From Bradyrhizobium sp. CCGB12 (GTDB lineage Bacteria; Pseudomonadota; Alphaproteobacteria; Rhizobiales; Xanthobacteraceae): a DNA stretch of 64,000 bases. The translations under genes and the position numbers were made by a program. The stretch is taken from assembly GCF_024199845.1 (NCBI RefSeq), contig NZ_JANADO010000001.1, forward strand, positions 3,658,001 to 3,722,000, written 5' to 3'. This document shows positions 50,507-63,980 of the stretch, one piece after another. The notes below the pieces were generated by a model. It saw only the letters and a program-made list of their open reading frames with translations. It ran no database searches and was not told where the DNA came from. Within the stretch, counting starts at the first letter, position 1. The number at the start of each line of letters is the position of its first letter.

Positions 50507-50723
50507 TTCGCACAGACTTTGTCAAGACGGTACCGCAGGGACCACGGGCCGCAAGCTCGCCACCACAGCGTCTATTTGAGATTCATTGCAAATTGGATAC
50601 CCGGGAGCGCCGATACCGGGCGATGCGGGCTCAGCCTTGAATTTACTTTTGGCACGAACTATCTTGCTCGTGTCCACAAGAGCTGCGCCAGCTTTCAATA
50701 GGCCACGAGCCCGGGAGATTCGA

Positions 50724-51230
50724 TTGGCACTCGCGAAGGAGTCCACGCCTGTTTCGGCCAGGAACGGGACAGATCAGGAAGCCGAGTACAGGGCTCAAAC
50801 CCGGGTTTGGCTCCGCCTGCTTGCTTGCACGACTCTGATCGAAGGCGAGCTGCGGCGCCGGTTTCGCGAAGAGTTTGATTTCACGATGCCCCGCTTCGAT
50901 GTTCTCGCTCAGCTCGACCGCGAACCGAGCGGACTCGTGCTGGGAGAGCTGCCCAAGCGCCTGATGGTCTCGGCCGGGAACCTGACGCCGATCGTGGATC
51001 GCCTGGTTGAGGATGGATACATCACCCGCACGCCGTCGAACCTCGACCGCCGCGTGCAGATTGTCTGCATGACGGTCGAAGGCCGCAAGACCTTCAGACG
51101 CATGGCCAAGAGCCACGGCGCGTGGCTCGCCGAACTGCTGGCGGATTTCCCGGCGGACCGGTACGAGGGGTTGATCAGCGAGCTCGACGAGCTCAAGGGC
51201 GCCGTCAGGGACGCGTTACAAAAACCCTGA
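50724..51230 (+). CDS. MarR-family transcriptional regulator
   Basis: 168 residues: winged HTH with DVLAQLDREPSGLVLGELPK, LMVSAGNLTPIVDRLVEDG as recognition helix, and the wing ITRTPSNLDRRVQIV (D-x-R motif). The TTG at 50724 is chosen because GGGAG lies 6 nt before it and the N-terminal helix then has the usual length. Regulators of this type control aromatic or phenylacrylic acid CoA pathways and respond to CoA thioesters or free acids. It converges with the CoA-ligase gene (13 bp apart). The duplicated element at 50485 and 58686 suggests it controls itself and the catabolic operons. Confidence 0.87.
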   Translation: MALAKESTPVSARNGTDQEAEYRAQTRVWLRLLACTTLIEGELRRRFREEFDFTMPRFDVLAQLDREPSGLVLGELPKRLMVSAGNLTPIVDRLVEDGYITRTPSNLDRRVQIVCMTVEGRKTFRRMAKSHGAWLAELLADFPADRYEGLISELDELKGAVRDALQKP

Positions 51231-51243
51231 GCGGAGGCGACGG

Positions 51244-52908
51244 TCAGCGTCGCAACCTCACTCCGGCCGCCTCGCGATCCCATGTATCCGCGGTGACGCC
51301 CGCGTCGCGCAGCACGCCCTTCTTGATCTTGCCGTTCTCCGTCAGTGGCATCTGGCTCAGAATGCGCACATAGCGCGGGATGGCGAAATAGGCGATCTGC
51401 CCTTCGCAATGCCTGACGATGTCGACGGGCTCCAGCGCTTGGCCCGGTTCCGGCAGGATCGCAGCCGCAACCTCGTCCTCTCCCAACTCCGATGGCAGCG
51501 GGTAGATCGCGCAAGCGGCGACCGCGGGATGGGACTGGATGGCCTGCTCGACCTCCCACGAGGATACGTTCTCGCCACGCCTGCGGATCGAATCCTTCAT
51601 GCGGTCGATGAAGCGATAATGTCCGTCAGGATCCCGAACGACCCGATCGCCCGAGTGAAACCACAGATTTCGCCAGGCCTCGACCGTCTTCTCCGGCATG
51701 CCGAAATAGCCGGTGGCGAAAGCAAAGGGTTCTCTGGCGCGAAGCACGAGCTCGCCGGCCTGTCCGTCGGGAAGCACTGAATCATTCTCGTCCACGATCC
51801 GCGCCTCGATTCCATCGGCCAGATAACCCATCGTCCCCGGGCGATCGGACGGAATCGCGCCGGCGAACACAAAGTTCGTCTCGGTCGACCCGTAGCCGTC
51901 GACCAGGGGCACGCCAAATCGCTCGCGGAACGGACCGTGGATCTGCGGCGGCACGCCACCGCCAAGCGCGACACGCATACGATGCGTCAAATCGTCTGCG
52001 CCCTTCGGCTGCGCCAGAAGCATCGACGCCATGGCGCCGAGCAGATAGCCGACCGTCGCATTGTGCCGTCGCGCGACGGCCCAGAAGCCGGAGGCGGAGA
52101 ATTTCGGCTCCAGCACGTAGGTGCATCCGTTCAGCAGCGCCTGATAGAACGCATTCAGCGCGTTGGTGTGGAACAGCGGCAGTGTCGTGAACAGCACATC
52201 CCCCTCGCGGATGCCGAGCGCCCGCGCCGAATAGATGCCCCACCAGAACAGTTGCGCCTGCGGACAACACACACCCTTTGCAGGTCCTGTTGTGCCCGAT
52301 GTGTAGAGGATCGCAACGGTGTCGCCGGGGCGGACGGCGCCCGCCGGGGCCGTGGCTCCGAGAGCCGGCAAAGGTCCCGCGGAAAGCCTGGCATCGATTG
52401 CCCCGGCGGCGGCTCCGATGATCCAGGTGCGGGGCGGCAGCTCGACACCCGCCTCGACACTATCGATCGCGGCAACGAATTGAGCCTCGACGACGAGGAG
52501 CGCAGGACGCGAGTTGCGGAAGATGTGAGAGAGCTGGAAGCCGCGCAGCGCGGTATTGATCGGCACTGCGATGGCCCCGAGCCACGCACAGCCGAGATAG
52601 ACTTGCAGGAACTCCGGACGGTTGGAGCACATCAGCGCGACCCGATCGCCCGGCTTGATCCCGGCATCGACGAGCGCCTGGGCCGACGCAGCCGCAATCG
52701 CCGCGGTCTGCGCAAAGGTCCAGCGCGTCTCTCCCGCGACCAGCAGGACGCGATCGCCGTAACGCTCCGCCTGCCGCGTGAGGATCGTCGAGAGGATGCG
52801 GTCCGACGGCGGAAACGACGTCACTGCGCGTACCCAGCCCGGCGTCGCATTCTCTCGGCCGACCGTCTCGCTGATGTTCGCCGGCGCATCGTTCTCCGTC
52901 ACGATCAT
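51244..52908 (-). CDS. AMP-forming acyl-CoA ligase
   Basis: 554 residues, ANL superfamily. ATP-binding P-loop YTSGTTGPAKGV, A5 motif GYGSTETN, A7/A8 WFHSGDRVVRDPDGHYRFIDRMKDSIRRRGENVS hinge region, and the C-terminal catalytic Lys in TENGKIKK. It activates a carboxylic acid to its CoA thioester, the first intracellular step of the pathway. It resembles carnitine/crotonobetaine and medium-chain ligases (CaiC-like), but the acid is unknown. It is last in the long minus-strand operon, 9 nt after the binding-protein gene. Confidence 0.9.
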   Translation of the reverse strand: MIVTENDAPANISETVGRENATPGWVRAVTSFPPSDRILSTILTRQAERYGDRVLLVAGETRWTFAQTAAIAAASAQALVDAGIKPGDRVALMCSNRPEFLQVYLGCAWLGAIAVPINTALRGFQLSHIFRNSRPALLVVEAQFVAAIDSVEAGVELPPRTWIIGAAAGAIDARLSAGPLPALGATAPAGAVRPGDTVAILYTSGTTGPAKGVCCPQAQLFWWGIYSARALGIREGDVLFTTLPLFHTNALNAFYQALLNGCTYVLEPKFSASGFWAVARRHNATVGYLLGAMASMLLAQPKGADDLTHRMRVALGGGVPPQIHGPFRERFGVPLVDGYGSTETNFVFAGAIPSDRPGTMGYLADGIEARIVDENDSVLPDGQAGELVLRAREPFAFATGYFGMPEKTVEAWRNLWFHSGDRVVRDPDGHYRFIDRMKDSIRRRGENVSSWEVEQAIQSHPAVAACAIYPLPSELGEDEVAAAILPEPGQALEPVDIVRHCEGQIAYFAIPRYVRILSQMPLTENGKIKKGVLRDAGVTADTWDREAAGVRLRR

Positions 52909-52917
52909 GCTCCCGCC

Positions 52918-54075
52918 TCAGGGCAACAGCTTGTATTTGCCGTCCTCGATCTGGACCAGGATACGCGAGCGATCGTCGACGCCATGCCGATCCGCCGGCG
53001 TATAGGTGTAGACGCCCTGTGTGCCGACGACCTCTTTGGTCGTGAACAGCGCCTGACGCAGCGCGGTGCGGAATTCCGGCGAGCCGGGCTTCGCTCCGGT
53101 TGCCATCGCGCGCTTGGCGGCATCGGCGAAGACCAGCCAGCCGTCGAAAGAATAGGACGAGAATGAATCCGTCGGCGCCTCGCCGTTCGCCTTCTCGAAG
53201 GCGCTGCGGAAATCCAGAGCCACCTTCTGGATCGGATTGCTGGTAGGCAGCTGCTCGGCCGCGGTCACCGGTCCGGTCGGGCAGATGATGCCGTTGGCGG
53301 TCTTGCCGGCCAGACGGAGGAAATCGGCGCTGATCAGCCCGTGATTGCCGTAGAGCGGCCCTTTATACCCGCGCTCGGACAAGGCGATGACCGGCAGTGC
53401 ACCGGGCGTCCCGGTGCCGCCGAGCATAATGGCATCGGGACGCGCAGCGAGTGCGCGCAGCACCTGGGCCGTCACCGAAGAGTCCGATCTGGCGTAGCGT
53501 TCGTTGGCAATGACCTTGATGTCGGCCGTCTTCGCACTCTGCTCGAGCGAATTGTACATGAGGTCGCCGAACGCATCCGAGAAGCCGATGAAGGCGGCCG
53601 TCTTCAGGCCCTTCGCCTTCATGTGGTCGATGATACCTTGCACGAGAAGCGGCGTCGGTTGCGGCGTCTGGACGACCCAGGGGCCGCCGTCGCCAGGCGG
53701 CACCGGCGCGATCGGAGACACCGCGATCATCGGAACCTTCATTTCGATGGCCGCAGTCGCCATCGCGAGCGTCTGGGGGGCTCCGGACGTGCCGATGAGG
53801 ACATCGACCTTCTCCTGCTCGACGAGCTTACGGGCGTTGCGCGCCGACGCCGTTGGATCGGAGCCGTCATCGAGCTGGATGACCCGGAGCTTCTCGCCGC
53901 CGATCTCGCCGATATAGGCCTGCCCTGCCGCGATCCCCTTCGCGTTGGGAATGCCGATCGACGACACCGGCCCGCTGAGGCCGGTGACGAATCCGACGAG
54001 GATTTCGGCCTGCGCAAGCTGCGGGACGGCAAGCAGCAATGCAGTGGAGGCCAGCAGGTTCTTGATCAAGTTCAT
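52918..54075 (-). CDS. LIV-type periplasmic binding protein (copy 1)
   Basis: 385 residues, Peripla_BP_6 family, with Sec signal (cleavage after AQA, ~residue 23). It aligns along its length with the protein at 59269-60417: both share ILVGFVT/ITIGFVT, IQLDDGSDP, NARKLVE and VPMIAVSPI. In this family such proteins bind branched amino acids, amides or aromatic and other carboxylic acids. The start at 54075 places the signal peptide at the N-terminus. It has no permease in this operon and probably shares the LivHMGF proteins at 60461-63980. Confidence 0.9.
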   Translation of the reverse strand: MNLIKNLLASTALLLAVPQLAQAEILVGFVTGLSGPVSSIGIPNAKGIAAGQAYIGEIGGEKLRVIQLDDGSDPTASARNARKLVEQEKVDVLIGTSGAPQTLAMATAAIEMKVPMIAVSPIAPVPPGDGGPWVVQTPQPTPLLVQGIIDHMKAKGLKTAAFIGFSDAFGDLMYNSLEQSAKTADIKVIANERYARSDSSVTAQVLRALAARPDAIMLGGTGTPGALPVIALSERGYKGPLYGNHGLISADFLRLAGKTANGIICPTGPVTAAEQLPTSNPIQKVALDFRSAFEKANGEAPTDSFSSYSFDGWLVFADAAKRAMATGAKPGSPEFRTALRQALFTTKEVVGTQGVYTYTPADRHGVDDRSRILVQIEDGKYKLLP

Positions 54076-54132
54076 GGCACCTGTCTTTCGTGAGCGTTTC
54101 TTGTTCTGATCGGCAAGCGCCACGGGTTGGGT

Positions 54133-54915
54133 TCAGGTTGACGCAACCAGCGCAATGACGCGAAGCGGACTGCCGGAGCCGTTCTGGATCTTCAGTGGCG
54201 AGGCGACGATGATGGCGCCGGTGGCCGGCAACTGATCCAGGTTGCACAGACATTGCAGGCCATAACGCCCCGCTCCGTGCAGGAAGTGATGCGCCGGATA
54301 AGGCGGATCGAAATGCCCGGCCTGCCCCGCATCGGTACCGATGGTCTCGGTGCCAAACCCGATGACGCCGCGCTCCTCCACCAGCCACTTCATGACCGCC
54401 GGATTCGGGCCCGGCGTATGTGCACCGTCGTCCCTGAGGTTCGCGTAGTCGCGCCAACCCTTCTTCGACCAATCGGTGCGCAGCAGAACCCAGTGACGAT
54501 CCGGGATCCGTCCATGCTTCGTTTCCCACGCTTCGACAAGCGGGACGGTCAGGACGAAGTCCGGATCCTGCGCGGCCTGTGCGGAGCAGTCGATGACGCA
54601 AGCCGGGGCGATCATGTCCTTCGGTGGCATCGTGTCGACGGCATTGTTCGGCAGGTTCTTGCCGGTGAACCAGTGAATCGGCGCGTCGAAATGCGTGCCG
54701 GTGTGTTCGCCAAACGTGACATTGTTCCAGTACCAGGCCGGGCCGCGACCGTCGTACCGCGAGATTTCCTGGATGCGGACCGGCGCCGCCTGGCCGAACT
54801 CCGGCGGTAGCACAATGACCGGAAAATCCGGACTAAGCGTAAAGGTCAGATCGACAACGCGCACCGCGCCGGAAGAGATCGCACCCGCCAGCTCCAGGAG
54901 ATTCTTGCTTTGCAT
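54133..54915 (-). CDS. Cyclase-family metal hydrolase (kynurenine formamidase fold)
   Basis: 260 residues. The metal motif HTGTHFDAPIH (H-x-G-T-H-x-D-x-P-x-H) is intact, with the LLRTDWS strand and VIGFGTETIGTD following, as in KynB and other cyclase/amidase members. Start ATG 54915 follows CGGAGGA 9 nt upstream; the frame is open further upstream but inside the neighbouring gene. Members hydrolyse amides, lactones or formamides. In this CoA locus it may open a ring or remove an acyl group; the substrate is not readable. Confidence 0.85.
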   Translation of the reverse strand: MQSKNLLELAGAISSGAVRVVDLTFTLSPDFPVIVLPPEFGQAAPVRIQEISRYDGRGPAWYWNNVTFGEHTGTHFDAPIHWFTGKNLPNNAVDTMPPKDMIAPACVIDCSAQAAQDPDFVLTVPLVEAWETKHGRIPDRHWVLLRTDWSKKGWRDYANLRDDGAHTPGPNPAVMKWLVEERGVIGFGTETIGTDAGQAGHFDPPYPAHHFLHGAGRYGLQCLCNLDQLPATGAIIVASPLKIQNGSGSPLRVIALVAST

Positions 54916-54949: not shown

Positions 54950-56191
54950 TCACCTGTCGAGCTCGCGCTCGAGCGCTTTCGGATTGGCCGCGAGACGCTG
55001 CCGGGTCTCTTCTGCGACATCTCCGACATACATCTCTTCGAGCCCACCTCTCAGCCCCGATACGATCGCCTGCGCAATCGCGCGCGGCGCCACCTTCGGC
55101 GGCGGCACGGTCTGAAACCATTCGGTGTCGACGGGCCCGGTGAACAGGTTCATCACCCGGACGCCCGCGGGCCTGAGCTCCGCGCGAAGGCAGTGCGACA
55201 GCGACAGGCAGGCTGCCTGCGAGGCCGAGTAGGCGCCAAAGGCAGGCCAGTTCGCCAGCGCATAGACCGAGAGAATGTTGACCCAAGCGGCGCTGTTATT
55301 GATGCCGTCGGCGCCGCGCATCCGCATGGCGGGTCCAAAGGCCTGCGCGAGGTTGATGAAGCCGAGATAGGCCTGGTCGATCTCGTCGCGTGCGATGCTT
55401 GTGCCCCGGCGGTCGAGCAGGCCGCCCGGCCGCACATATTCCGTCGTGTTGACAAGGATATCGACCTTACCGCCGATGTCGGCGGCCAGATCGGCGGCGG
55501 ACTTTTCGTCGGCTGCGTCAAGGGTAACGATCTCGATCCCGTCCTGACCACGCAGCAGCTTCTCGCCGGCGAACGGCCGCCATGGTTCGGCAACGCCGAC
55601 GAATACCGTCTTGGCCCCTGCACCCTTCAAGGCGGCGACGGCTTCCTGGCCGATCACGCTGCGGCCGTTGGTCACGAGCACGCGCCGGAATTTCGGGTCG
55701 GCCGTCATTTCCCGCCACTGCTTGTCGTCTACCATGTTGGGAGTCTCCCCCTCAGGATGGGCAAAGGCCACCGCCTGACCGCTCTTGTCGAGTTGCAACG
55801 ACATGCGGACGGGCGTGCCCTCCGCGCAGTCGGCGTGGAGGTGTGCCACGATCGTCGGACCGCAATCCATCTTCACGAGGCCGATCCGCCAGGGCGCCCG
55901 CTCGCGGAAGTAGACATCGCTCGGCACGCGCGCCGTCGTCTCGGAAAGGAGCATGCCTCGGCGCGGCGCGTCGACGAATGCGAGGCCCAACGACAGGCAT
56001 GACGGACACGCCTCCCGCGCCGGATAAGCAAAGGTGCCGCAAGCCTCACAGCGTTGCAGCATGAAGCGGCCTTCGGCGGCTGCCCGCGTAAACCCATGGG
56101 ACGTCCTGCTGCGCGGTCGCGGTGGCGAGGCAGGAAGCCGCGTCCGCAACAGCGGGTTCTTGCGCCGGGGCGGTTTGATCGGCTCGATCAT
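54950..56191 (-). CDS. DUF35 (Zn-ribbon/OB) fused to a degenerate SDR
   Basis: 413 residues. N-terminal half (~35-150) is DUF35: a Cys4 zinc ribbon (Cys48, 51, 62, 65 in CEACGTFAYPAREACPSC) and an OB fold, which in lipid metabolism partners thiolase-like proteins and handles acyl-CoA. C-terminal half (~168-370) is SDR-like, but damaged at key sites: VTNGRSVIG in place of T-G-x-x-x-G-x-G, and Tyr320-SAS-Gln324 where Y-x-x-x-K is expected (Lys to Gln). Ser307 is present. It overlaps the thiolase gene by 4 nt. The SDR half may be a binding or structural module. Confidence 0.82.
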   Translation of the reverse strand: MIEPIKPPRRKNPLLRTRLPASPPRPRSRTSHGFTRAAAEGRFMLQRCEACGTFAYPAREACPSCLSLGLAFVDAPRRGMLLSETTARVPSDVYFRERAPWRIGLVKMDCGPTIVAHLHADCAEGTPVRMSLQLDKSGQAVAFAHPEGETPNMVDDKQWREMTADPKFRRVLVTNGRSVIGQEAVAALKGAGAKTVFVGVAEPWRPFAGEKLLRGQDGIEIVTLDAADEKSAADLAADIGGKVDILVNTTEYVRPGGLLDRRGTSIARDEIDQAYLGFINLAQAFGPAMRMRGADGINNSAAWVNILSVYALANWPAFGAYSASQAACLSLSHCLRAELRPAGVRVMNLFTGPVDTEWFQTVPPPKVAPRAIAQAIVSGLRGGLEEMYVGDVAEETRQRLAANPKALERELDR

Positions 56192-57366
56192 CGCGAAGGC
56201 CCTGCAAAGATCGCGGCGCCCGATGCCAGGCCGCGGTCATAGTTGATCATGCCGAAGCCCGAGGCCAGGCAGAGGTTTGCGTCGCTGGCCTGGGTCGGCC
56301 CCGCGATTCCCAGAACCTGCCGCAGCCCTTCGACGAGACCGAGATAAGCGCCGGCCGCGCCGGCCTGCCCGGCCGAGAGTTGCCCGCCCGAGGTGTTGTG
56401 CGGAAAGTCGCCGTCGATGGTGAGATCGTGCTGGCGCACGAATTCCGCGCCCTCGCCCTTCTTGCAGAAGCCGAGATCCTCGAACTGCATCATCGTGATG
56501 ACGGGATAATCATCATAGGTCTGCACGATATCGAGATCGTCAGGCTTCACGCCGGCCATCGCATAGAGCTCGCCCGCGTCCATCGCCCAGCCGCCGCGCA
56601 CCTGCATCGGATCGTCGGCAAAGGCATTATGCCGCTCGATCGTCGAAAGCAGCCGGGCGGCTGCCAGCCCGAGTGAGGCTGCAGTCTCCTCGCGCATCAC
56701 GAGGAAGGCCTCGGCGCCGGCGCATGGCATCACGCAATCGAACAGATGGATGGGGTCGGAGATCGGCCGTGCCGCCAGATACTGCTCCATCGTCAGCGGC
56801 GTCTTCATCAGCGCGTGCGGATTGCGCAAGGCATTGACCCGCTGGGCGACGGCGATCCTTCCGACATCCTCGCGCGTGACGCCGAACGTCCGCATGTAGT
56901 TGCGCGCAATCAGCGCGAAGCTCGCATTGGCGCCGCCCGCTCCGTAGGGATAGACGGCGTCCTGGTTGAACCGGGAAAAATTCTCCAGCGTCAGCCTGAA
57001 CGAATCGACATGATTGGTATCGCCGGCGACGCACGCCACGATGTCGGCGTCGCGCGCCTGAACCGCGCGCGCCGCCTTTCGCAGCGCAGCGATGGCGCTG
57101 GCGCCACCGAGCGGGATCGTGTCCAGCCATCGTACGCAGAGCCCAAAATGCTGCGTCAAGCCGACCCCGCTGTCAGTACCCATGGTGAAACTGGAGACGC
57201 ACAGACCGTCGATATCAGACGCCTTGATGCCGGCCTGTGCAACGAGCGCGCTCAGCGCCCGCCCGATCCACCACTGCGCGCTCTCTATGGAGTAGCGCAC
57301 ATAGGGAATTGTAACGGGAGCCGCGATCACGACCCCGTCGTACGGTGTGCGCAAGGTATTGGTCAC
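56188..57366 (-). CDS. Thiolase-fold lipid-transfer-type protein lacking catalytic Cys and His
   Basis: 392 residues of the SCP2-thiolase-like family. At the nucleophile site the sequence is PLGGASAIAALRKAAR, with Ala89 where the Cys stands in true thiolases. The C-terminal G-H-P motif is SGGQLSAGQAGAAGA, with Gln334 in place of His. The remaining fold marks (FDCVMPCAGAEAFLV; CLASGFGMINYDRG) are good. Steroid-degrading Ltp2 is a Cys-less thiolase homologue that, with a DUF35 partner, cleaves CoA esters by retro-aldol reaction; the overlap here with a DUF35 gene makes the same role likely (inference). Confidence 0.85.
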   Translation of the reverse strand: MTNTLRTPYDGVVIAAPVTIPYVRYSIESAQWWIGRALSALVAQAGIKASDIDGLCVSSFTMGTDSGVGLTQHFGLCVRWLDTIPLGGASAIAALRKAARAVQARDADIVACVAGDTNHVDSFRLTLENFSRFNQDAVYPYGAGGANASFALIARNYMRTFGVTREDVGRIAVAQRVNALRNPHALMKTPLTMEQYLAARPISDPIHLFDCVMPCAGAEAFLVMREETAASLGLAAARLLSTIERHNAFADDPMQVRGGWAMDAGELYAMAGVKPDDLDIVQTYDDYPVITMMQFEDLGFCKKGEGAEFVRQHDLTIDGDFPHNTSGGQLSAGQAGAAGAYLGLVEGLRQVLGIAGPTQASDANLCLASGFGMINYDRGLASGAAIFAGPSR

Positions 57367-57388: not shown

Positions 57389-57817
57389 TCAGACCACCGT
57401 CAGTTTCACGTCAATATTGCCGCGGGTTGCGTTCGAATAGGGGCAGCGCTCGTGTGCGCCGGCAACGACCTCTTCGGCCACTGCTTTCTCGACACCAGGC
57501 AGATTGACCTTCAGCTCGACAGCAAGCGCGTATCCGACGGCAACCGGCCCCATCGCAACCTTAGCTGTCACGGACGGCTCGGCGGAGGGCACCACCTTCC
57601 GCGTGCGCGCGACGAGCTTGACCGCGCCGAGAAAGCACGCGGCATAGCCGGCTGCAAAGAGCTGCTCGGGATTGGTGCCCTCCCCACCCGGGCCGCCCAG
57701 CGATTTCGGCAAGGACAGCGACACCGACAATAGTCCGTCGATGCTAGCGGCCTTACCCTCCCGACCGCCGGTCGCCGTCACCTCGGTCTCGTACAGGATC
57801 TTTTCGGGAGTCATCAT
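57389..57817 (-). CDS. ohr: Organic hydroperoxide resistance protein (Ohr/OsmC family)
   Basis: 142 residues. The two catalytic Cys of the Ohr peroxidase are Cys61 in YAACFLGA and Cys125 in HERCPYSNATRGN; the GTNPEQLFAAGY signature and N-terminal beta strands fit Ohr rather than OsmC. It reduces organic and fatty acid hydroperoxides using lipoylated proteins. ATG at 57817 follows GGAGAG. It sits 22 bp upstream of the thiolase-like gene within the operon, perhaps because oxidation of the substrate makes peroxides. Also possible: control by the MarR protein, which has OhrR relatives. Confidence 0.9.
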   Translation of the reverse strand: MMTPEKILYETEVTATGGREGKAASIDGLLSVSLSLPKSLGGPGGEGTNPEQLFAAGYAACFLGAVKLVARTRKVVPSAEPSVTAKVAMGPVAVGYALAVELKVNLPGVEKAVAEEVVAGAHERCPYSNATRGNIDVKLTVV

Positions 57818-57847: not shown

Positions 57848-58630
57848 CTAGCGGCTGCTACGGGCGAGCAGCGCCCGGAAATCGGCGCGCGCCTGGGCGC
57901 TGGCCCGCGTGAAGCTCGGCCCCCGGCTTGGTTCTGTGCCATTGAGCTGCCGGAGCTGCACCCACATCTCGGCACTCTTCAGCGCCACGGCCGCGCAGTT
58001 GACCACCGGCGCGTGGCCGACCTTCAGGCCATGCTCCCGCCCAATCAGGAGGCCCGGCAGCACGCCGGCCGGGATCACGACATCAGCGCCGCGCTCGACC
58101 AGGGGGAGGGCACAGGCGACAAAATCCTCGATCATGCGGGCTTGCGCGACGGCGTCTCCGGCGAACGCATCGGCGAAATCCTCCGGCTTGCAGCCGAGAC
58201 CGGTCACGTGCACCACGCGGCCGCCGAGGCCGTAACGCTCGGCCTGCTCGTAGTGCCAGACCTCGAAGACGGGATCGAGCGTGACAAGGCCGAGTCGCCG
58301 GCCGAGTTGTGAGGCCGCCAGCAACGTTGCCTCGCCGGCCCCGATCACGGGAATGTCGAGCGCCGAGCGCAGCTCGTAAAGGCCGGGATCCTGGAAATGC
58401 CCCATGACAAAGGCGTCGAACCCGCCCTCCTCTGCCGCAATGCCGTTATCGATCGCCTGGACCGCACAGCGCAATTCCGCAAGCCGTCCGAATTCCCGGT
58501 CTGGCGGCGTAATGCCCTCGACGTGAACCGTCGTGCCTGATGCGGCGATGTTGTTGAGATATTCCGACAGCCGCGCCATGTAGGGCGCGTTCACGCTCGC
58601 ATCAACGAAGCTCTGCCAGAAGATGCGCAT
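57848..58630 (-). CDS. Asp/Glu/hydantoin racemase-family protein with replaced catalytic Cys
   Basis: 260 residues of the racemase fold: IFWQSF near the start, a first active-site loop VMGHFQDPGL where true hydantoin racemases have C-F-x-D-P-G, so the Cys is His78, and a second loop DVVIPAGVLPG where the family has L-G-C-A-G-M, so that Cys is lost as well. Glycine-rich GAGEATLLAA fits the substrate-phosphate-like loop. It is the first gene of the leftward operon, just behind the MarR-type element. Racemisation by two Cys is excluded; isomerase or decarboxylase activity is possible. Confidence 0.75.
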   Translation of the reverse strand: MRIFWQSFVDASVNAPYMARLSEYLNNIAASGTTVHVEGITPPDREFGRLAELRCAVQAIDNGIAAEEGGFDAFVMGHFQDPGLYELRSALDIPVIGAGEATLLAASQLGRRLGLVTLDPVFEVWHYEQAERYGLGGRVVHVTGLGCKPEDFADAFAGDAVAQARMIEDFVACALPLVERGADVVIPAGVLPGLLIGREHGLKVGHAPVVNCAAVALKSAEMWVQLRQLNGTEPSRGPSFTRASAQARADFRALLARSSR

Positions 58631-59268
58631 CGTCCTTCTTCCTCAAGCGGTGATCGGAGGGTCGGTCGTCAGATGCCGATGAATATATTTCAATCATAAA
58701 CTAATTCACGCGTCAAATGCGCGCCGCGGCGGCGGCGATGGGCATCGTCCACGACACGGCAAGCCCAGCTTTTTCGCGCGCTCGAGCGATGAAGAAACGC
58801 CGCATACTTACGAAATTGTATGCAGCAACATTTTTTTCTGACAGCGCCGTGACACGTGTTGACGGCGCCACCGGCAATACTTTAGGCTTTAAGCAATTCC
58901 TCGCCGGGCTAGGGACCGGCGGCCATGACAATGATGTTGCAGGGCAGCGATTTTGAGAGACTCGATCGTGTGGACAGTCGCCGTGCTCGAACAGCCGGCC
59001 GTAGCAGCAGCATCACCGGTCGCGCATCGCGGCCGCACCGACGACCTTTCATTGCTCCGGAAAAGGCCCGCCTGCATTCGCCGATGGGCCCGTCGTTCGC
59101 GCGGCAAGCAACATCATGGCTGCTGAGCGCCCGGGCGAGCAAACTCCCTTCGGTCGCGCCAGGGATTTGGCGCTGCAGCAATGCTTTCAATCGGTTGGTT
59201 CGTCGTTCGGGGTCTCCGCGCGGCAGCTTCAAGGCATTTCTATCCAGCATCAACGGAGGAGAACGCAG
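58631..59268. promoter_or_regulatory. Divergent control region of the two acyl-CoA/transport operons
   Basis: 638 bp without a supported gene. Near the left end lies the 22-bp MarR-type element (58686-58707). A half-similar stretch, AAATTGTATGC, is at 58813-58823. The right part carries the leader of the binding-protein gene with ACGGAGGAG. A long minus-strand frame crosses here but reads as the shadow of the binding-protein gene. Confidence 0.5.
58686..58707. promoter_or_regulatory. MarR-type element, site 2
   Basis: Matches the element at 50485-50506 at 17 of 22 positions (core TATTTYAAKCATAAA), 56 bp upstream of the racemase-family gene start. It sits within a looser palindrome from 58681 (GAAT-N3-TTT ... 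AAA-N3-ATTC). Location fits repression of the leftward operon, perhaps also of the rightward one. Confidence 0.5.
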
Positions 59269-60417
59269 ATGCGCAAGACTCTGAGCTTCCTTGCACTTGT
59301 CGCCGGAATCGTCGCAGCCCCAGCCGCGCAGGCCGACATCACCATCGGCTTCGTCACTTCGCTCAGCGGCAACGGTTCGTCGATCGGCATCCCCTATGGG
59401 CGCGGCATCAACGCCGCCTATGAATACAAGAAGACCATCAACGGCGAAACCGTCCGCCTGATCCAGCTCGACGACGGTTCCGACCCGTCGGCCGCGACCC
59501 GCAACGCGCGCAAGCTGGTGGAAGAGGAGAAGGTCGACCTCCTGATCGGCACCGCGACGGCGCCTTCGACCATCGCGATGGCGGCGGTGGCGAGCGAATT
59601 GAAAGTGCCGATGATCGCGGTCTCGCCGATCGGCAAGCTGCCTGAAACACCCGAGCAGTGGGTGGTGTCGGTGCCACAGCCGGCGTCGCTCCTCGTCAAG
59701 GTCATCGCCGACCGCATGAAGCGCGATGGCATGAAGAACATCGGCTATATCGGCTTCTCCGACGCGTGGGGCGACCTCGTCTACAACGGCGCCAAGGCCG
59801 CCGAAGCCGCCGGTGACATCAAGATCCAGACCAATGAGCGCTATGCGCGCACCGACACCTCGGTGACCGCACAGATCCTGAAGGTGCTTGCTGCACGGCC
59901 CGACGCCGTGCTGGACGGCGGCTCGGGGACGCAAGGCGCGCTGCCTCTCCTCAGCCTCGCGGACCGCGGCTTCAAGGGCAACACCTACGGCACGGTGGCG
60001 CTGGTCAATCCGGACTTCGTGAGCGTCGGCGGCAAGGCGGCGGAAGGCATCCAGGTCTCCGCGGGCCCGGTCATCGTGGCCGAGCAGCTTCCCGACGAGC
60101 ATTTCGCCAAGAAGATCGCGCTGGACTTCCGCAGCGTCTACCAGAAGACCAATAACGTCCCGACCACCGACGGCTTCTCCGCCTACTCCTTCGACGCCTG
60201 GCTGATCTTCGCCAATGCTGCGGAGCGCGCCCTCAAGACGGCGAAACCCGGAACGGCCGAATTCCGCACTGCGCTGCGGGATGCGATCCTCAGCACCAAG
60301 GAGCTGGCGGGCGTGCATGCCGTCTACAACTTCAAGCCCGGCGCGGTGACCGGTGTCGACGAACGCGCCCTGGTCGTGGTGCGCCTGACCGGCGGCGCCT
60401 GGAAGTACGCGCCTTAA
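59269..60417 (+). CDS. LIV-type periplasmic binding protein (copy 2)
   Basis: 382 residues, Peripla_BP_6 family; Sec signal with cleavage after AAQA (~residue 23). Start 59269 has ACGGAGGAG 5-7 nt upstream and puts the signal peptide at the N-terminus; the longer frame upstream is unsupported. Homologous to copy 1 at 52918-54075. It is the first gene of the LivHMGF operon. Two binding proteins feeding one permease set would widen the substrate range; the ligand is probably the acid activated by the CoA ligase (inference). Confidence 0.92.
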   Translation: MRKTLSFLALVAGIVAAPAAQADITIGFVTSLSGNGSSIGIPYGRGINAAYEYKKTINGETVRLIQLDDGSDPSAATRNARKLVEEEKVDLLIGTATAPSTIAMAAVASELKVPMIAVSPIGKLPETPEQWVVSVPQPASLLVKVIADRMKRDGMKNIGYIGFSDAWGDLVYNGAKAAEAAGDIKIQTNERYARTDTSVTAQILKVLAARPDAVLDGGSGTQGALPLLSLADRGFKGNTYGTVALVNPDFVSVGGKAAEGIQVSAGPVIVAEQLPDEHFAKKIALDFRSVYQKTNNVPTTDGFSAYSFDAWLIFANAAERALKTAKPGTAEFRTALRDAILSTKELAGVHAVYNFKPGAVTGVDERALVVVRLTGGAWKYAP

Positions 60418-60460: not shown

Positions 60461-61504
60461 ATGACGAGCGACATCGCAGCCATTCTTGCGATCGACGGGA
60501 TCGCCACCGGAGCTGTCTATGCCCTGGTGGCGATCGGGACGGTCCTGATCTTCACGGTGACGCGGGTCATCTTTATTCCCTTCGGCGACATCGCCGCCTT
60601 CACGGCGCTGACGCTGGCTGCCCTCGATGCGAAGCGCTTTCCGGGCACGGGAGCGCTGGTCGTCATCCTGGCCTGCCTCGCTACCCTGATCGAGATCATC
60701 GCCCTTGCGCGTTCCAGCGAGCTCCGGCAGCTGCCTCGCGCACTGTCCTTCTATCTCGTGCTTCCGCTCGCTGTTGTCGGCGCAGCCTGGCTTGTCATGC
60801 GCCTGGATCCTCCCCTCGCGGTCCGGCTCGTGCTCGCGCTGATGCTGATCATGCCAATCTCCCCGCTGCTCGATCGGATCGTATTCCGTCCGATTGCTGA
60901 CGGCACCGTGCTCCTGTTGCTGACGGTGTCCGTGGCGCTGCATTTCGCGCTGGTGGGCCTTGGCCTGTTGTTCTTCGGCCCCGAAGGGGTCCGGACCGAG
61001 CCGCTGACCTCACTCTCGACCGAGTTCGCGGGCGTGCTGATCTCGGGCCAGACCATGCTGATCGTGATCGCGGCACTCGTCTTCAGCGGCCTGCTCTACC
61101 TCTTCTTCGACTTCACGCTGGTCGGAAAATCGTTGCGCGCCACGGCCGTGAACCGGACTGGTTCCCGCCTGATGGGGATACGGCCGGCTCGCGCCGGCAC
61201 CATTGCCTATCTGCTGGGGTCGCTGATGGCCGGCGTATCGGGCATCCTGATCGCTCCTGTGAACACCGTCTTCTACGACTCCGGCTTCCTTCTCGGCCTC
61301 AAAGCCTTCGTCGGCGCCATCGTCGGCGGCATGACCAGCTATCCCGGTGCGGTGATCGGCGCCGTCGGCGTCGGCATCCTCGAAAGCTTCGCATCCTTCG
61401 AGAGCAGCGCGCTCAAGGATGTCATCGTGTTTTCACTCCTGATCCCGATCCTGATCTGGCGATCCCTCGCCTCGCTGCATTCCGAGGAGGAAATCGAGGA
61501 ATGA
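60461..61504 (+). CDS. livH: Branched-chain-type ABC permease LivH
   Basis: 347-residue inner-membrane permease of the LivH family with about eight to ten helices and the N-terminal GAVYALVAIGTVLIFTVTRV segment. The cytoplasmic loop with the ATPase contact reads KSLRATAVNRTGSRLMGI. It begins 43 nt after the binding-protein stop and overlaps the next gene (ATGA). Family members import branched amino acids, amides, urea or aromatic and other acids. Confidence 0.92.
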   Translation: MTSDIAAILAIDGIATGAVYALVAIGTVLIFTVTRVIFIPFGDIAAFTALTLAALDAKRFPGTGALVVILACLATLIEIIALARSSELRQLPRALSFYLVLPLAVVGAAWLVMRLDPPLAVRLVLALMLIMPISPLLDRIVFRPIADGTVLLLLTVSVALHFALVGLGLLFFGPEGVRTEPLTSLSTEFAGVLISGQTMLIVIAALVFSGLLYLFFDFTLVGKSLRATAVNRTGSRLMGIRPARAGTIAYLLGSLMAGVSGILIAPVNTVFYDSGFLLGLKAFVGAIVGGMTSYPGAVIGAVGVGILESFASFESSALKDVIVFSLLIPILIWRSLASLHSEEEIEE

Positions 61505-63266
61505 CGCGTCTTCACGTTCAGCTTGCTGCGCTGACAGCGGTGGTGTGCCTCGCGCTCGCGCCCCTCGTCCTCAGCCCCTTCAGCATCACGCTGATGAATT
61601 ACATCGGCATCTATTCGCTGGTCGCCATCGGACTTGCACTTCTCACCGGCGTCGGCGGCATCGTGTCCTTCGGACAGGCCGCGTTTGTTGGCGTTGCGGC
61701 CTACGCGACGGCCTGGGTCTCTGCGCTGAACGGGCATTCGCCCTGGCTCGGACTGCTGTTCGGCGTGGTCCTGACCTGCGGCGTCGCGACCCTTCTGGGC
61801 GTCGTCACCCTGCGGCTTCAGGGCCATTTCCTGTCGCTCTCGACCGTCGCGTGGGGCCTTGCGATCGGCTTCCTGTTCGGCAATGTCGAGGGGCTCGGTC
61901 GGTTCAACGGCATCTCGTCGATCCCGCCGATCAGTTTCGGATCGTTTGCGCTGGCCTCCAGCGCGCAGATCTATTTCCTGATCTGGGGAATCGTCGTCCT
62001 CGTCCTTGTGCTTGGCTACAATCTCCTGGACTCCCGGCTTGGCCGCGCCATGCGCGCGCTCCGCGGCGGCAATACGCTGGTCGAAAGCCTCGGCATCAAT
62101 GCCTTCCGGATCAAGCTCGCGACCTTCGTGATCGCGGCGTTCCTGGCCTCGCTGTCCGGCTGGCTCTACGCGCATCTGAGCCGCTTCATCAGCCCGGGTC
62201 CGTTCGATGCCGGTATGGGCATCGAATATCTGATGATGTCGATGGTCGGTGGCGCCGGCAGCCTTCTCGGCGGCGTCGTGGGTGCCGCCATCGTGACGCT
62301 ACTGAAGAACAGCGTGCAGGACTATCTGCCACTCATCGCCAAGGGCGCATCCGGCCAGCTCGAGATCGTCGCCTTCTCCGCGCTGTTCATCCTGTTTTTG
62401 CAATGGGCGCGGCAGGGCATCGTGCCGTTCGTCGCGCGCTACCTGCCGAAGATGCGGCGAGAGCGGCCGCAGTCGGCGCCGTCCCTGCCTCGCCGTTCGC
62501 AGCCGAAGCCGGGCGAGCTCCTCCTGAAGGTGGATGGTGCCGAGCGCCGGTTCGGCGGCCTCGTCGCCGTCAACAATGTCAGCTTCGAGGTCCGCTCCGG
62601 CGAGATCCTTGCCGTCATCGGCCCGAACGGCGCCGGCAAGAGCACGATGTTCAACTGCCTGACCGGTGCGCTCAGGGTCAACAAGGGTGAGATCGTGTTC
62701 GCGGGACGCCCGATCACACGCGACGCGCAATCCCGCATCGCCAAGGCTGGAATCGCCAGAACCTTTCAGCACGTGAAGCTGCGGCCGCGCATGAGCCTGC
62801 TCGAAAACGTCATGCTCGGCACCTACGGCCGCACCGGCACCGGCCTGTTTGCCGGCGCCTTCCGGCTGAATCGACGCGAGGAAGCGAGCGCCCGACATGA
62901 GGCGCTGATGCAGCTCGAGCGCGTCGGGCTCGGCGACAAGCCATTCGAGCTCGCTGGCAACCTTCCCCTCGGCAATCAGCGCATCCTGGAGATCGCGCGC
63001 GCACTCGCGGCCGACCCTGCGCTGCTGGTGCTCGACGAGCCGGCGGCGGGTTTGCGCCGCCAGGAGAAGCTCAGGCTTGCCGAGCTGCTGCGGTCATTGC
63101 GGGCGGACCATCTGACCATTCTGATCGTCGAGCATGACATGGAGTTCGTGATGTCGCTGGTCGACCGCATCGTGGTGCTGGATTTCGGCTCCAAGCTCTG
63201 TGAAGGCGTACCGAGCGCGATCCGCAACGACGAGCGGGTTCAAGAGGCTTATCTCGGAGGCGTCGC

Positions 63267-63270
<4 letters not shown>
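61501..63270 (+). CDS. LivM-LivG fusion: permease plus ATPase in one chain
   Basis: 589 residues. Residues ~1-315 are a LivM permease (VSFGQAAFVGVAAYATAW; coupling loop GRAMRALRGGNTLVESLGI). After a Pro/Arg-rich linker (~320-335) a LivG ATPase follows: Walker A GPNGAGKSTMFN (~376), Q-loop TFQHVKL, signature LPLGNQRILEIARALA, Walker B LLVLDEPAAGL and His in VEHDMEF. LivM and LivG are usually separate genes. Signature LPLGNQ differs from the usual L-S-Y-G-x-Q, as often in LivG. It overlaps LivH and LivF by 4 nt each. Confidence 0.92.

Positions 63271-63980
<710 letters not shown>

Follow-up and report, generated by a model that had tools for sequence, protein, structure and literature searches.

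Bacterial loci for degradation of the auxin indole-3-acetic acid (IAA), named iad, have been described, with Bradyrhizobium among their hosts (PMC9613470, PMC11630574), and degradation of IAA via isatin to anthranilate is reported for B. japonicum (PMC9613470). In Variovorax, iadCDE, iadF, iadG, iadH, iadI and iadJ have been deleted, and loss of iadF, G, H or I lowers anthranilate and leads to accumulation of C10H9NO4, the formula of dioxindole-3-acetic acid (DOAA) (PMC12633357, a preprint). Expression clones of Variovorax IadG and IadH have already been made (PMC10374108). In print, upstream enzymes convert IAA to DOAA, and IadF is thought to form its coenzyme A (CoA) thioester. From gene annotation, the preprint assigns IadG as a ketothiolase and IadH as an alcohol dehydrogenase, acting in a 'reductive removal' of the side chain to C8H7NO2, with C8H7NO3 and C7H7NO detected downstream. 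Thiolase-fold proteins that cleave by another chemistry are known for steroids. The bile-acid retro-aldolase CtSal has Tyr302 as base and Cys304 as acid in a YDCY motif, Gln347 and Gln352 behind the Cys, and Gly89 at the place of the thiolase nucleophile, while Ltp2 uses YDHF and Tyr344 in catalysis (PMC12329534). Shy, the partner of Sal, begins with a DUF35 domain, by which it binds Sal, and continues with an enzyme domain (PMC11321319). The present analysis concerns a stretch of 64,000 nucleotides from Bradyrhizobium sp. CCGB12 (contig NZ_JANADO010000001.1, positions 3,658,001 to 3,722,000; 'the window'), in which a minus-strand open reading frame (ORF) for a thiolase-fold protein overlaps by 4 bases one for a DUF35 domain fused to a short-chain dehydrogenase/reductase (SDR) fold, also on the minus strand. 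With the hydrolase gene that follows, these are iadG, iadH and iadI of the published IAA degradation locus, and IadG and IadH probably act as a CoA retro-aldolase pair in which the SDR half is a dead scaffold. The locus and the requirement for its genes are known; the proposals made here concern how the reaction proceeds, an active site built on YDDY, and IadH as a pseudo-enzyme. A search of openly licensed PMC papers, mostly screened as listings, turned up neither an account of IadG as an aldolase nor one of a DUF35-SDR fusion.

The trio is identified as iadGHI because gene order places it there. In Ruegeria pomeroyi DSS-3, Roseibium aggregatum, Paracoccus saliphilus and on a Sulfitobacter plasmid the annotated genes form a single run, (iadC-)D-E-F-G-H-I-J, and the window trio corresponds to G-H-I. 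The same D-F-G-H-I-J order is found by tblastn in a Variovorax-like genome of another class (G636) and in loci L078, L081 and L087, the place of E being an unscanned gap. Among the 120 relatives listed for the IadH of G636, all those named to genus are Variovorax; they are about 417 aa long and share the DUF35-SDR architecture. In the window genome, IorA and IorB (recognised via Pfam and similarity to annotated relatives), two MarR regulators, an SDR, a CoA ligase, a Rieske alpha subunit and a reductase lie about 16-26 kb downstream of iadG. The Rieske subunit (G000:C1, about 3.739-3.741 Mb) matches Variovorax IadD (7yls/9o71, E 3e-171), and an IadE-like reading frame, recognised by reading without a family scan, lies between its gene and the ligase. 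The MarR near IadD matches 7kym over all 160 residues (E 7e-102), a B. japonicum MarR according to the list in PMC11630574, and the second matches 3boq. Orthologs of iadF and iadJ are located with iadCDE, 21-26 kb from iadGHI. The region therefore holds an IadD-type Rieske oxygenase, an iad-type MarR with IorA/IorB, and consecutive iadG-iadH-iadI with IadF and IadJ; contiguity is usual in iad loci and was not treated as defining.

The immediate neighbours point the same way. Both periplasmic binding proteins of the window have 7ylt as their best match, which we take to be Variovorax IadK2; in line with this, 7ylt is nearly identical to the binding protein encoded in the Variovorax-like locus L077. 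IadI matches isatin hydrolase A (5nna/5nnb, E 1e-117), and its homologs keep the motif EHTGTHFDAP, with the Mn-site HxxxHxD, in 73 of 75 cases and the QC of the GLxS/GLQC motif in 74 of 75; the roles of both motifs are given in PMC6117287. A protein 95% identical to IadG is named Blr3429 in UniRef (P0157), and in B. japonicum exposed to 1 mM IAA the Ohr gene blr3428 is up 17.1-fold, with iorA up 30.7-fold and iorB 7.64-fold (PMC3788728); from tag number and product, blr3428 would be the ortholog of the window Ohr gene. In the window genome, where 6 of 103 candidates were scored, there is one IadH match; one of four zf-ChsH2 hits is a fused protein and one of five Thiolase_C_1 hits has YDDY, and therefore no other iadG or iadH is at hand. 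A steroid or fatty-acid route was considered and rejected, the neighbours being isatin hydrolase and 7ylt-like binding proteins. An earlier sequence-only reading placed both ORFs correctly and recognised the fusion and its overlap with the thiolase-like gene, but its 'undescribed acid-degradation route' gives way to the published IAA locus. Its CoA retro-aldolase with a DUF35 partner is retained as the best reading, though not as a 'novel system', iadG and iadH being in print. The adjacent 'cyclase' hydrolase it noted is IadI, a close relative of isatin hydrolase A; the adjacent CoA ligase (51244-52908) is also present, but was rejected as IadF, whose ortholog by synteny is L066:15302-16918, beside iadCDE.

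IadG belongs to Thiolase_C_1 (PF22691), and its closest solved relative is CtSal (9MYR, E 4e-50), followed by Ltp2 (6OK1). It lacks all four catalytic residues of SCP2 thiolases (nucleophilic Cys, His and Cys of HDCF, His of GHP); in their place are Gly88, YDDY and GQA, while a thiolase of the same genome (L103) is intact in all three motifs. Aligned to CtSal, the corresponding residues of IadG are Gly88, Tyr284-Asp285-Asp286-Tyr287, Gln329 and Gln334. In 196 IadG sequences, including 120 database proteins (the best 120 of 7999), Tyr284, Gln329 and Gln334 are kept throughout, and Asp286, Gly88 and the full YDDY each in 195; the sole Gly88 exception, L093, looks frameshifted near that residue and was kept in the alignment. 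Database rows, here and for IadH, are mostly Bradyrhizobium and Variovorax and partly overlap the loci, so these large counts are not independent, and the 26-27 diverse loci are the better sample. Because the residue losses are conserved over the 196 sequences and the gene order recurs outside Bradyrhizobium, they are not due to chance. YDDY occurs in none of nine comparison sequences (four paralogs of the window genome and five solved chains), and the 27 IadG rows group together as a single clade (support 100/99) in a 36-row tree. The median ratio of nonsynonymous to synonymous substitution rates (Ka/Ks) is 0.048 against other Bradyrhizobium loci. A catalytic Tyr in YDxY/F without the nucleophilic Cys, and a DUF35 partner next door, are shared with the Sal/Ltp2 class. 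IadG is not filed as Sal or Ltp2, however, because Asp286 and Gln334 replace their second catalytic residue (Cys304, or His296 with Tyr344). Asp286 is presumed to be the acid, in a clade separate from both. These structural statements derive from alignment to solved relatives.

IadH (413 aa) joins zf-ChsH2, OB_ChsH2_C (together DUF35) and adh_short in one protein (Pfam). Its structure model (predicted local distance difference test score, pLDDT, 76) retrieves with Foldseek the SDR 5u4s first and then 6ok1_B and 9myr_B, the DUF35 chains of the Ltp2 and Sal complexes, with template-modelling (TM) scores by target of 0.76 and 0.73 and E-values ahead of PhlB and archaeal DUF35; the 50 displayed VIA-align rows cover almost only the SDR half, the DUF35 matches coming from Foldseek. 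The alignment of 320 rows includes 240 database proteins (the best 120 of 2692 and the best 120 of 5427); short loci of genomes already present (L050, L054-L058, L060-L063, L065, L071-L073) and L066-L070 were left out. Each zinc-ribbon Cys is kept in 316-317 rows, the rest being gaps apart from two rows with Ser at Cys62. By contrast, the YxxxK of classical SDR dehydrogenases is intact in none of the 317 readable rows (320 less P0099 and two gapped rows), where Tyr with Gln (151 rows, window type) and Phe with Lys (124 rows, the type of Variovorax-like L077) predominate. P0099, with an apparently intact YxxxK, was rejected: it is an IadH pseudogene whose truncated SDR half breaks off close to the active site and continues into the adjacent binding protein, so that its letters there are misaligned. 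In the IadJ dehydrogenase, used as a control, YxxxK is present in 9 of 9 (eight loci and the window genome, at least 45% identical to the window genome's IadJ). The second place of the Gly-rich motif of IadH is Asn or Asp in all 320 rows, and Ser308 is kept in 316. For the SDR part, median Ka/Ks relative to 18-19 other Bradyrhizobium loci is 0.052, and for DUF35 it is 0.078; the comparison used the 19 of 48 loci that passed the length and frame filter. From these alignments the SDR half looks catalytically dead and kept by selection.

Two residue numbers of the sequence-only reading shift by one. Loss of the nucleophilic Cys holds, at Gly88 by alignment to CtSal and to the own-genome thiolase, the Ala89 it named being the next residue; Gln334 at the GHP His place was correct. 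The Lys of YxxxK is indeed lost, at Gln325 with Tyr321 and not at Gln324. The replacement of HDCF by YDDY had been missed. A DUF35 carried by an enzyme fold other than MaoC was rightly seen, although that enzyme half looks dead.

Four further YDDY proteins lie beside a DUF35 without SDR (L132-L135); Pfam recognises the DUF35 in three of them, while in L133 the zinc motif and tblastn identify it. In the tree, L132 falls within the IadG clade (98/95 with L088), a position that fits loss of the SDR half after fusion. Across these variants the core of aldolase and DUF35 outlasts the SDR domain. A CoA ligase adjoins the pair in L132, L133 and L135, and a family III CoA-transferase in L134. These proteins are candidate aldolases for other acids, and suggest a wider aldolase set with other substrates. 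In L136 (9559-11921) the pair is degenerate on both sides, with NDEC for YDDY and with a DUF35 that is below Pfam cut-offs and has no Pfam family in its C-terminal half.

The fusion gene is 80-96% identical across 49 genome loci, 48 of them titled Bradyrhizobium, in agreement with the host; the other, titled Frankia sp. RB7 (L007), is a 95% identical Bradyrhizobium-type locus whose title is probably wrong. The PF04199 hydrolase lies beside the fusion gene in all 49 and the thiolase-like gene in 47, the other two beginning inside the fusion at a contig edge. The thiolase-DUF35/SDR-cyclase order also recurs outside Bradyrhizobium, at 42-59% IadH identity. Among 297 genomes sampled from the order, IadH is found in 14 (E <= 1e-40), IadD in 8 (E <= 1e-100), all among those 14, and IadG-like proteins in 17 (E <= 1e-80); these counts ignore relatedness (4 of the 8 and 4 of the 14 are the window's own genus), and only the best few candidates per genome were scored. 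In the IadG-IadH loci L080, L082, L083, L084, L086, L088 and L089 the fetched 20 kb contains no close IadD; a TRAP-type binding protein together with a winged-helix regulator occurs in L083, L086, L088 and L089. No other oxygenase was found among the checked ORFs beside IadH in genomes lacking a close IadD; these ORFs were TRAP transporter parts and winged-helix regulators.

DOAA has a tertiary hydroxyl beta to the carboxyl, from which no beta-ketoacyl-CoA is possible. Because a tertiary alcohol cannot give the beta-ketone, there is no substrate for a dehydrogenase or a thiolase. By formula, DOAA is isatin plus acetic acid; isatin plus water is the reported C8H7NO3, which less CO2 is the reported C7H7NO. 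Dioxindole plus water is C8H9NO3, not C8H7NO3. A retro-aldolase with a DUF35 partner is the best reading because the catalytic Tyr is kept, the thiolase residues are gone, the DUF35 structure matches and the pathway chemistry agrees. Tyr284 of IadG would deprotonate the tertiary C3 hydroxyl of dioxindole-3-acetyl-CoA, the bond between C3 and the side-chain CH2 would cleave in a retro-aldol step, and Asp286, aided by Gln329 and Gln334, would protonate the acetyl-CoA enolate. Isatin and acetyl-CoA would be released with no redox change and with neither NAD(P) nor free CoA consumed. IadH would hold IadG via its DUF35 domain, the SDR half serving as a catalytically dead scaffold, and IadI would open isatin to isatinate, towards anthranilate.

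Some observations weigh against this proposal. When IadI is missing, C8H7NO2, the formula of dioxindole, builds up, which Jiang et al. read as a reductive step (PMC12633357); in the proposal it would arise from isatin through reduction by other enzymes of the host. The nearest neighbours of IadG in the tree, CtSal and Ltp2, group with it only at 93/80 and 92/90, and adding five rows lowers this support to 88/79 and 85/54; because the branches are long, this neighbourhood is moderate evidence. The oxyanion Gln161 of CtSal is not kept: of 27 IadG rows, 26 carry Ala or Pro instead and the remaining one Thr, with the invariant Asn147 of IadG adjoining that place. Changing the CtSal Cys to Ala, Ser or His abolished activity, so that Asp there is no trivial swap (PMC12329534). 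The IadG model, from 43 aligned sequences, has a mean pLDDT of 39, and 6 of the 14 IadH-bearing genomes have no close IadD. Even so, the annotated alternative, a beta-ketothiolase and an alcohol dehydrogenase that remove the acetyl side chain reductively to dioxindole, is very improbable. It has the published role assignments and the C8H7NO2 on its side, but it requires a beta-ketone that the tertiary alcohol cannot give, a thiolase without its catalytic residues, a dehydrogenase in which YxxxK is nowhere complete, and a hydrated product that does not match the formula found.

A retro-aldolase IadG, which overlaps the proposal above, might be combined with an SDR half that still works with nucleotide or substrate, for example by side-reducing isatin to dioxindole or by passing DOAA-CoA on. 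The strong purifying selection on the SDR part and the kept Ser308 favour this, as does the nearest solved relative, 5u4s, whose structure was obtained with NADP although Leu takes the place of the Tyr in the alignment. We nevertheless think it unlikely, as Tyr and/or Lys are lost differently in different lineages, the Gly-rich motif is altered in every row and relatives with stand-alone DUF35 exist. The suggestion of the sequence-only reading that the module serves an acid other than IAA has in its favour the distance of about 21-26 kb from iadCDEFJ, the module's own CoA ligase, the IadH genomes of one sample without close IadD and the other settings of the stand-alone-DUF35 relatives. It can hardly be upheld against the single iadG-iadH pair at hand in the window genome, the isatin hydrolase and 7ylt-like binding proteins on its flanks, and the IAA induction of the neighbouring Ohr gene in B. 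japonicum.

The coordinates are collected in Table 1. On the minus strand the order of transcription is racemase-family gene, Ohr, thiolase-like gene, DUF35-SDR gene, PF04199 hydrolase, periplasmic binding protein and CoA ligase, and this set is flanked by the MarR gene and a LIV-type importer.

Table 1. Features of the iadGHI region, in window positions.
Feature	Position	Strand	Basis
iadG, thiolase-fold protein, predicted dioxindole-3-acetyl-CoA retro-aldolase	56188..57366	-	ORF; PF22691; solved relatives; tree
YDDY motif Tyr284-Asp285-Asp286-Tyr287 (predicted base Tyr284, predicted acid Asp286)	56506..56517	-	alignment to CtSal Y302-D-C304-Y
Gly88, nucleophilic-Cys position of thiolases (CtSal Gly89)	57103..57105	-	alignment
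Gln334, GHP-His position (CtSal Gln352, Ltp2 Tyr344)	56365..56367	-	alignment
iadH, DUF35 (zinc ribbon + OB fold, residues 37-132) + SDR fold (about 165-410)	54950..56191	-	Pfam; Foldseek
Rubredoxin-like zinc ribbon CxxC...CxxC, IadH residues 37-69	55985..56083	-	alignment
Broken SDR active site Tyr321-SAS-Gln325 (YxxxQ) of IadH	55217..55231	-	alignment
iadI, predicted isatin hydrolase (PF04199)	54133..54915	-	isatin hydrolase A match; motifs
Periplasmic binding protein, 7ylt-related	52918..54123	-	7ylt, E 2e-141
Second CoA ligase (NF004808/PRK06155)	51244..52908	-	family match; synteny
MarR-family regulator	50586..51230	+	Pfam
Ohr peroxiredoxin, directly upstream of iadG	57389..57817	-	family match
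Asp/Glu racemase-family protein	57848..58630	-	Pfam
Second 7ylt-like binding protein	59116..60417	+	7ylt, E 3e-136
LIV-type importer permease + ATPase genes	60461..63980	+	read from ORFs, no family scan; conserved with locus

The start of iadI is likely the ATG at 54915, with GGAGG before it, and the longer ORF reaching 55047 is probably over-extended. The second CoA ligase recurs at 50-75% identity in the iad loci L076, L079, L081, L085 and L137; among the 49 Bradyrhizobium-type loci it has no match in 9 and a short match only in 3. Ohr and Asp/Glu racemase genes accompany iadG in many Bradyrhizobium loci (Ohr in 36 of 49), in Pukyongiella (L092) and in Agrobacterium pusense (L091). In L066 (6245-9506) a fumarylacetoacetate-hydrolase/cupin/nitrilase block adjoins the iad genes, with similar arrangements in Ruegeria (L074), Shinella (L076) and Sagittula (L096); it is possibly an anthranilate or nitrile side route.

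The question has practical weight, as iad genes are being transferred to root bacteria with the aim of adjusting plant growth (PMC12633357), and side-chain removal is the step of the isatin route whose printed roles come from annotation. Should IadG prove to be a retro-aldolase that needs no cofactor, and IadH a dead scaffold, the pathway would be drawn without NAD(P)H and without thiolysis, its product at this step being isatin and not dioxindole, and the assays, possibly also the minimal gene set, would change. The range of thiolase-fold aldolases would then reach beyond steroids to an aromatic substrate, cleaved with another catalytic pair, and IadH would be a clear case of an SDR domain retained after loss of catalysis.

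Compared with known systems, the window shares its gene set and iadG-H-I order with the iad loci of Variovorax paradoxus CL14 and B. japonicum USDA110, for which isatin/anthranilate end products are in print. Relatives show iadC-J in one run, whereas in the window Bradyrhizobium iadGHI is split from the other genes. IadI, a predicted isatin hydrolase, has the metal-site and GLQC signatures of isatin hydrolase A of Labrenzia aggregata (5NNA/5NNB). The benzoylsuccinyl-CoA thiolase BbsB/BbsA shares the thiolase fold and a DUF35 subunit, but BbsB keeps the nucleophilic Cys and the GHP His, unlike IadG. TcLtp2-ChsH2 (6OK1), a steroid C3 side-chain aldolase, shares the fold, the catalytic Tyr and a DUF35 partner, but has YDHF with Tyr344 where IadG has YDDY with Gln334, and its partner is of a different type. 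CtSal-CtShy (9MYR), a bile-acid side-chain aldolase, is closest, with the fold, Gly at the nucleophile place, the catalytic Tyr, both Gln and an N-terminal DUF35 on a fused partner in common; it differs in Cys304, which corresponds to Asp286, in Gln161, and in CtShy being a DUF35-MaoC with an active hydratase where IadH has a dead SDR, while IadG would act on an indole substrate. On balance we favour the view that IadG-IadH represents a third class among thiolase-fold CoA retro-aldolases, one that relies on a Tyr-Asp (YDDY) acid-base pair, acts on a tertiary beta-hydroxyacyl-CoA outside steroid metabolism and has its DUF35 on a pseudo-dehydrogenase. On this view it would also supply the C-C cleavage still missing from the isatin route by which aerobic bacteria degrade auxin.

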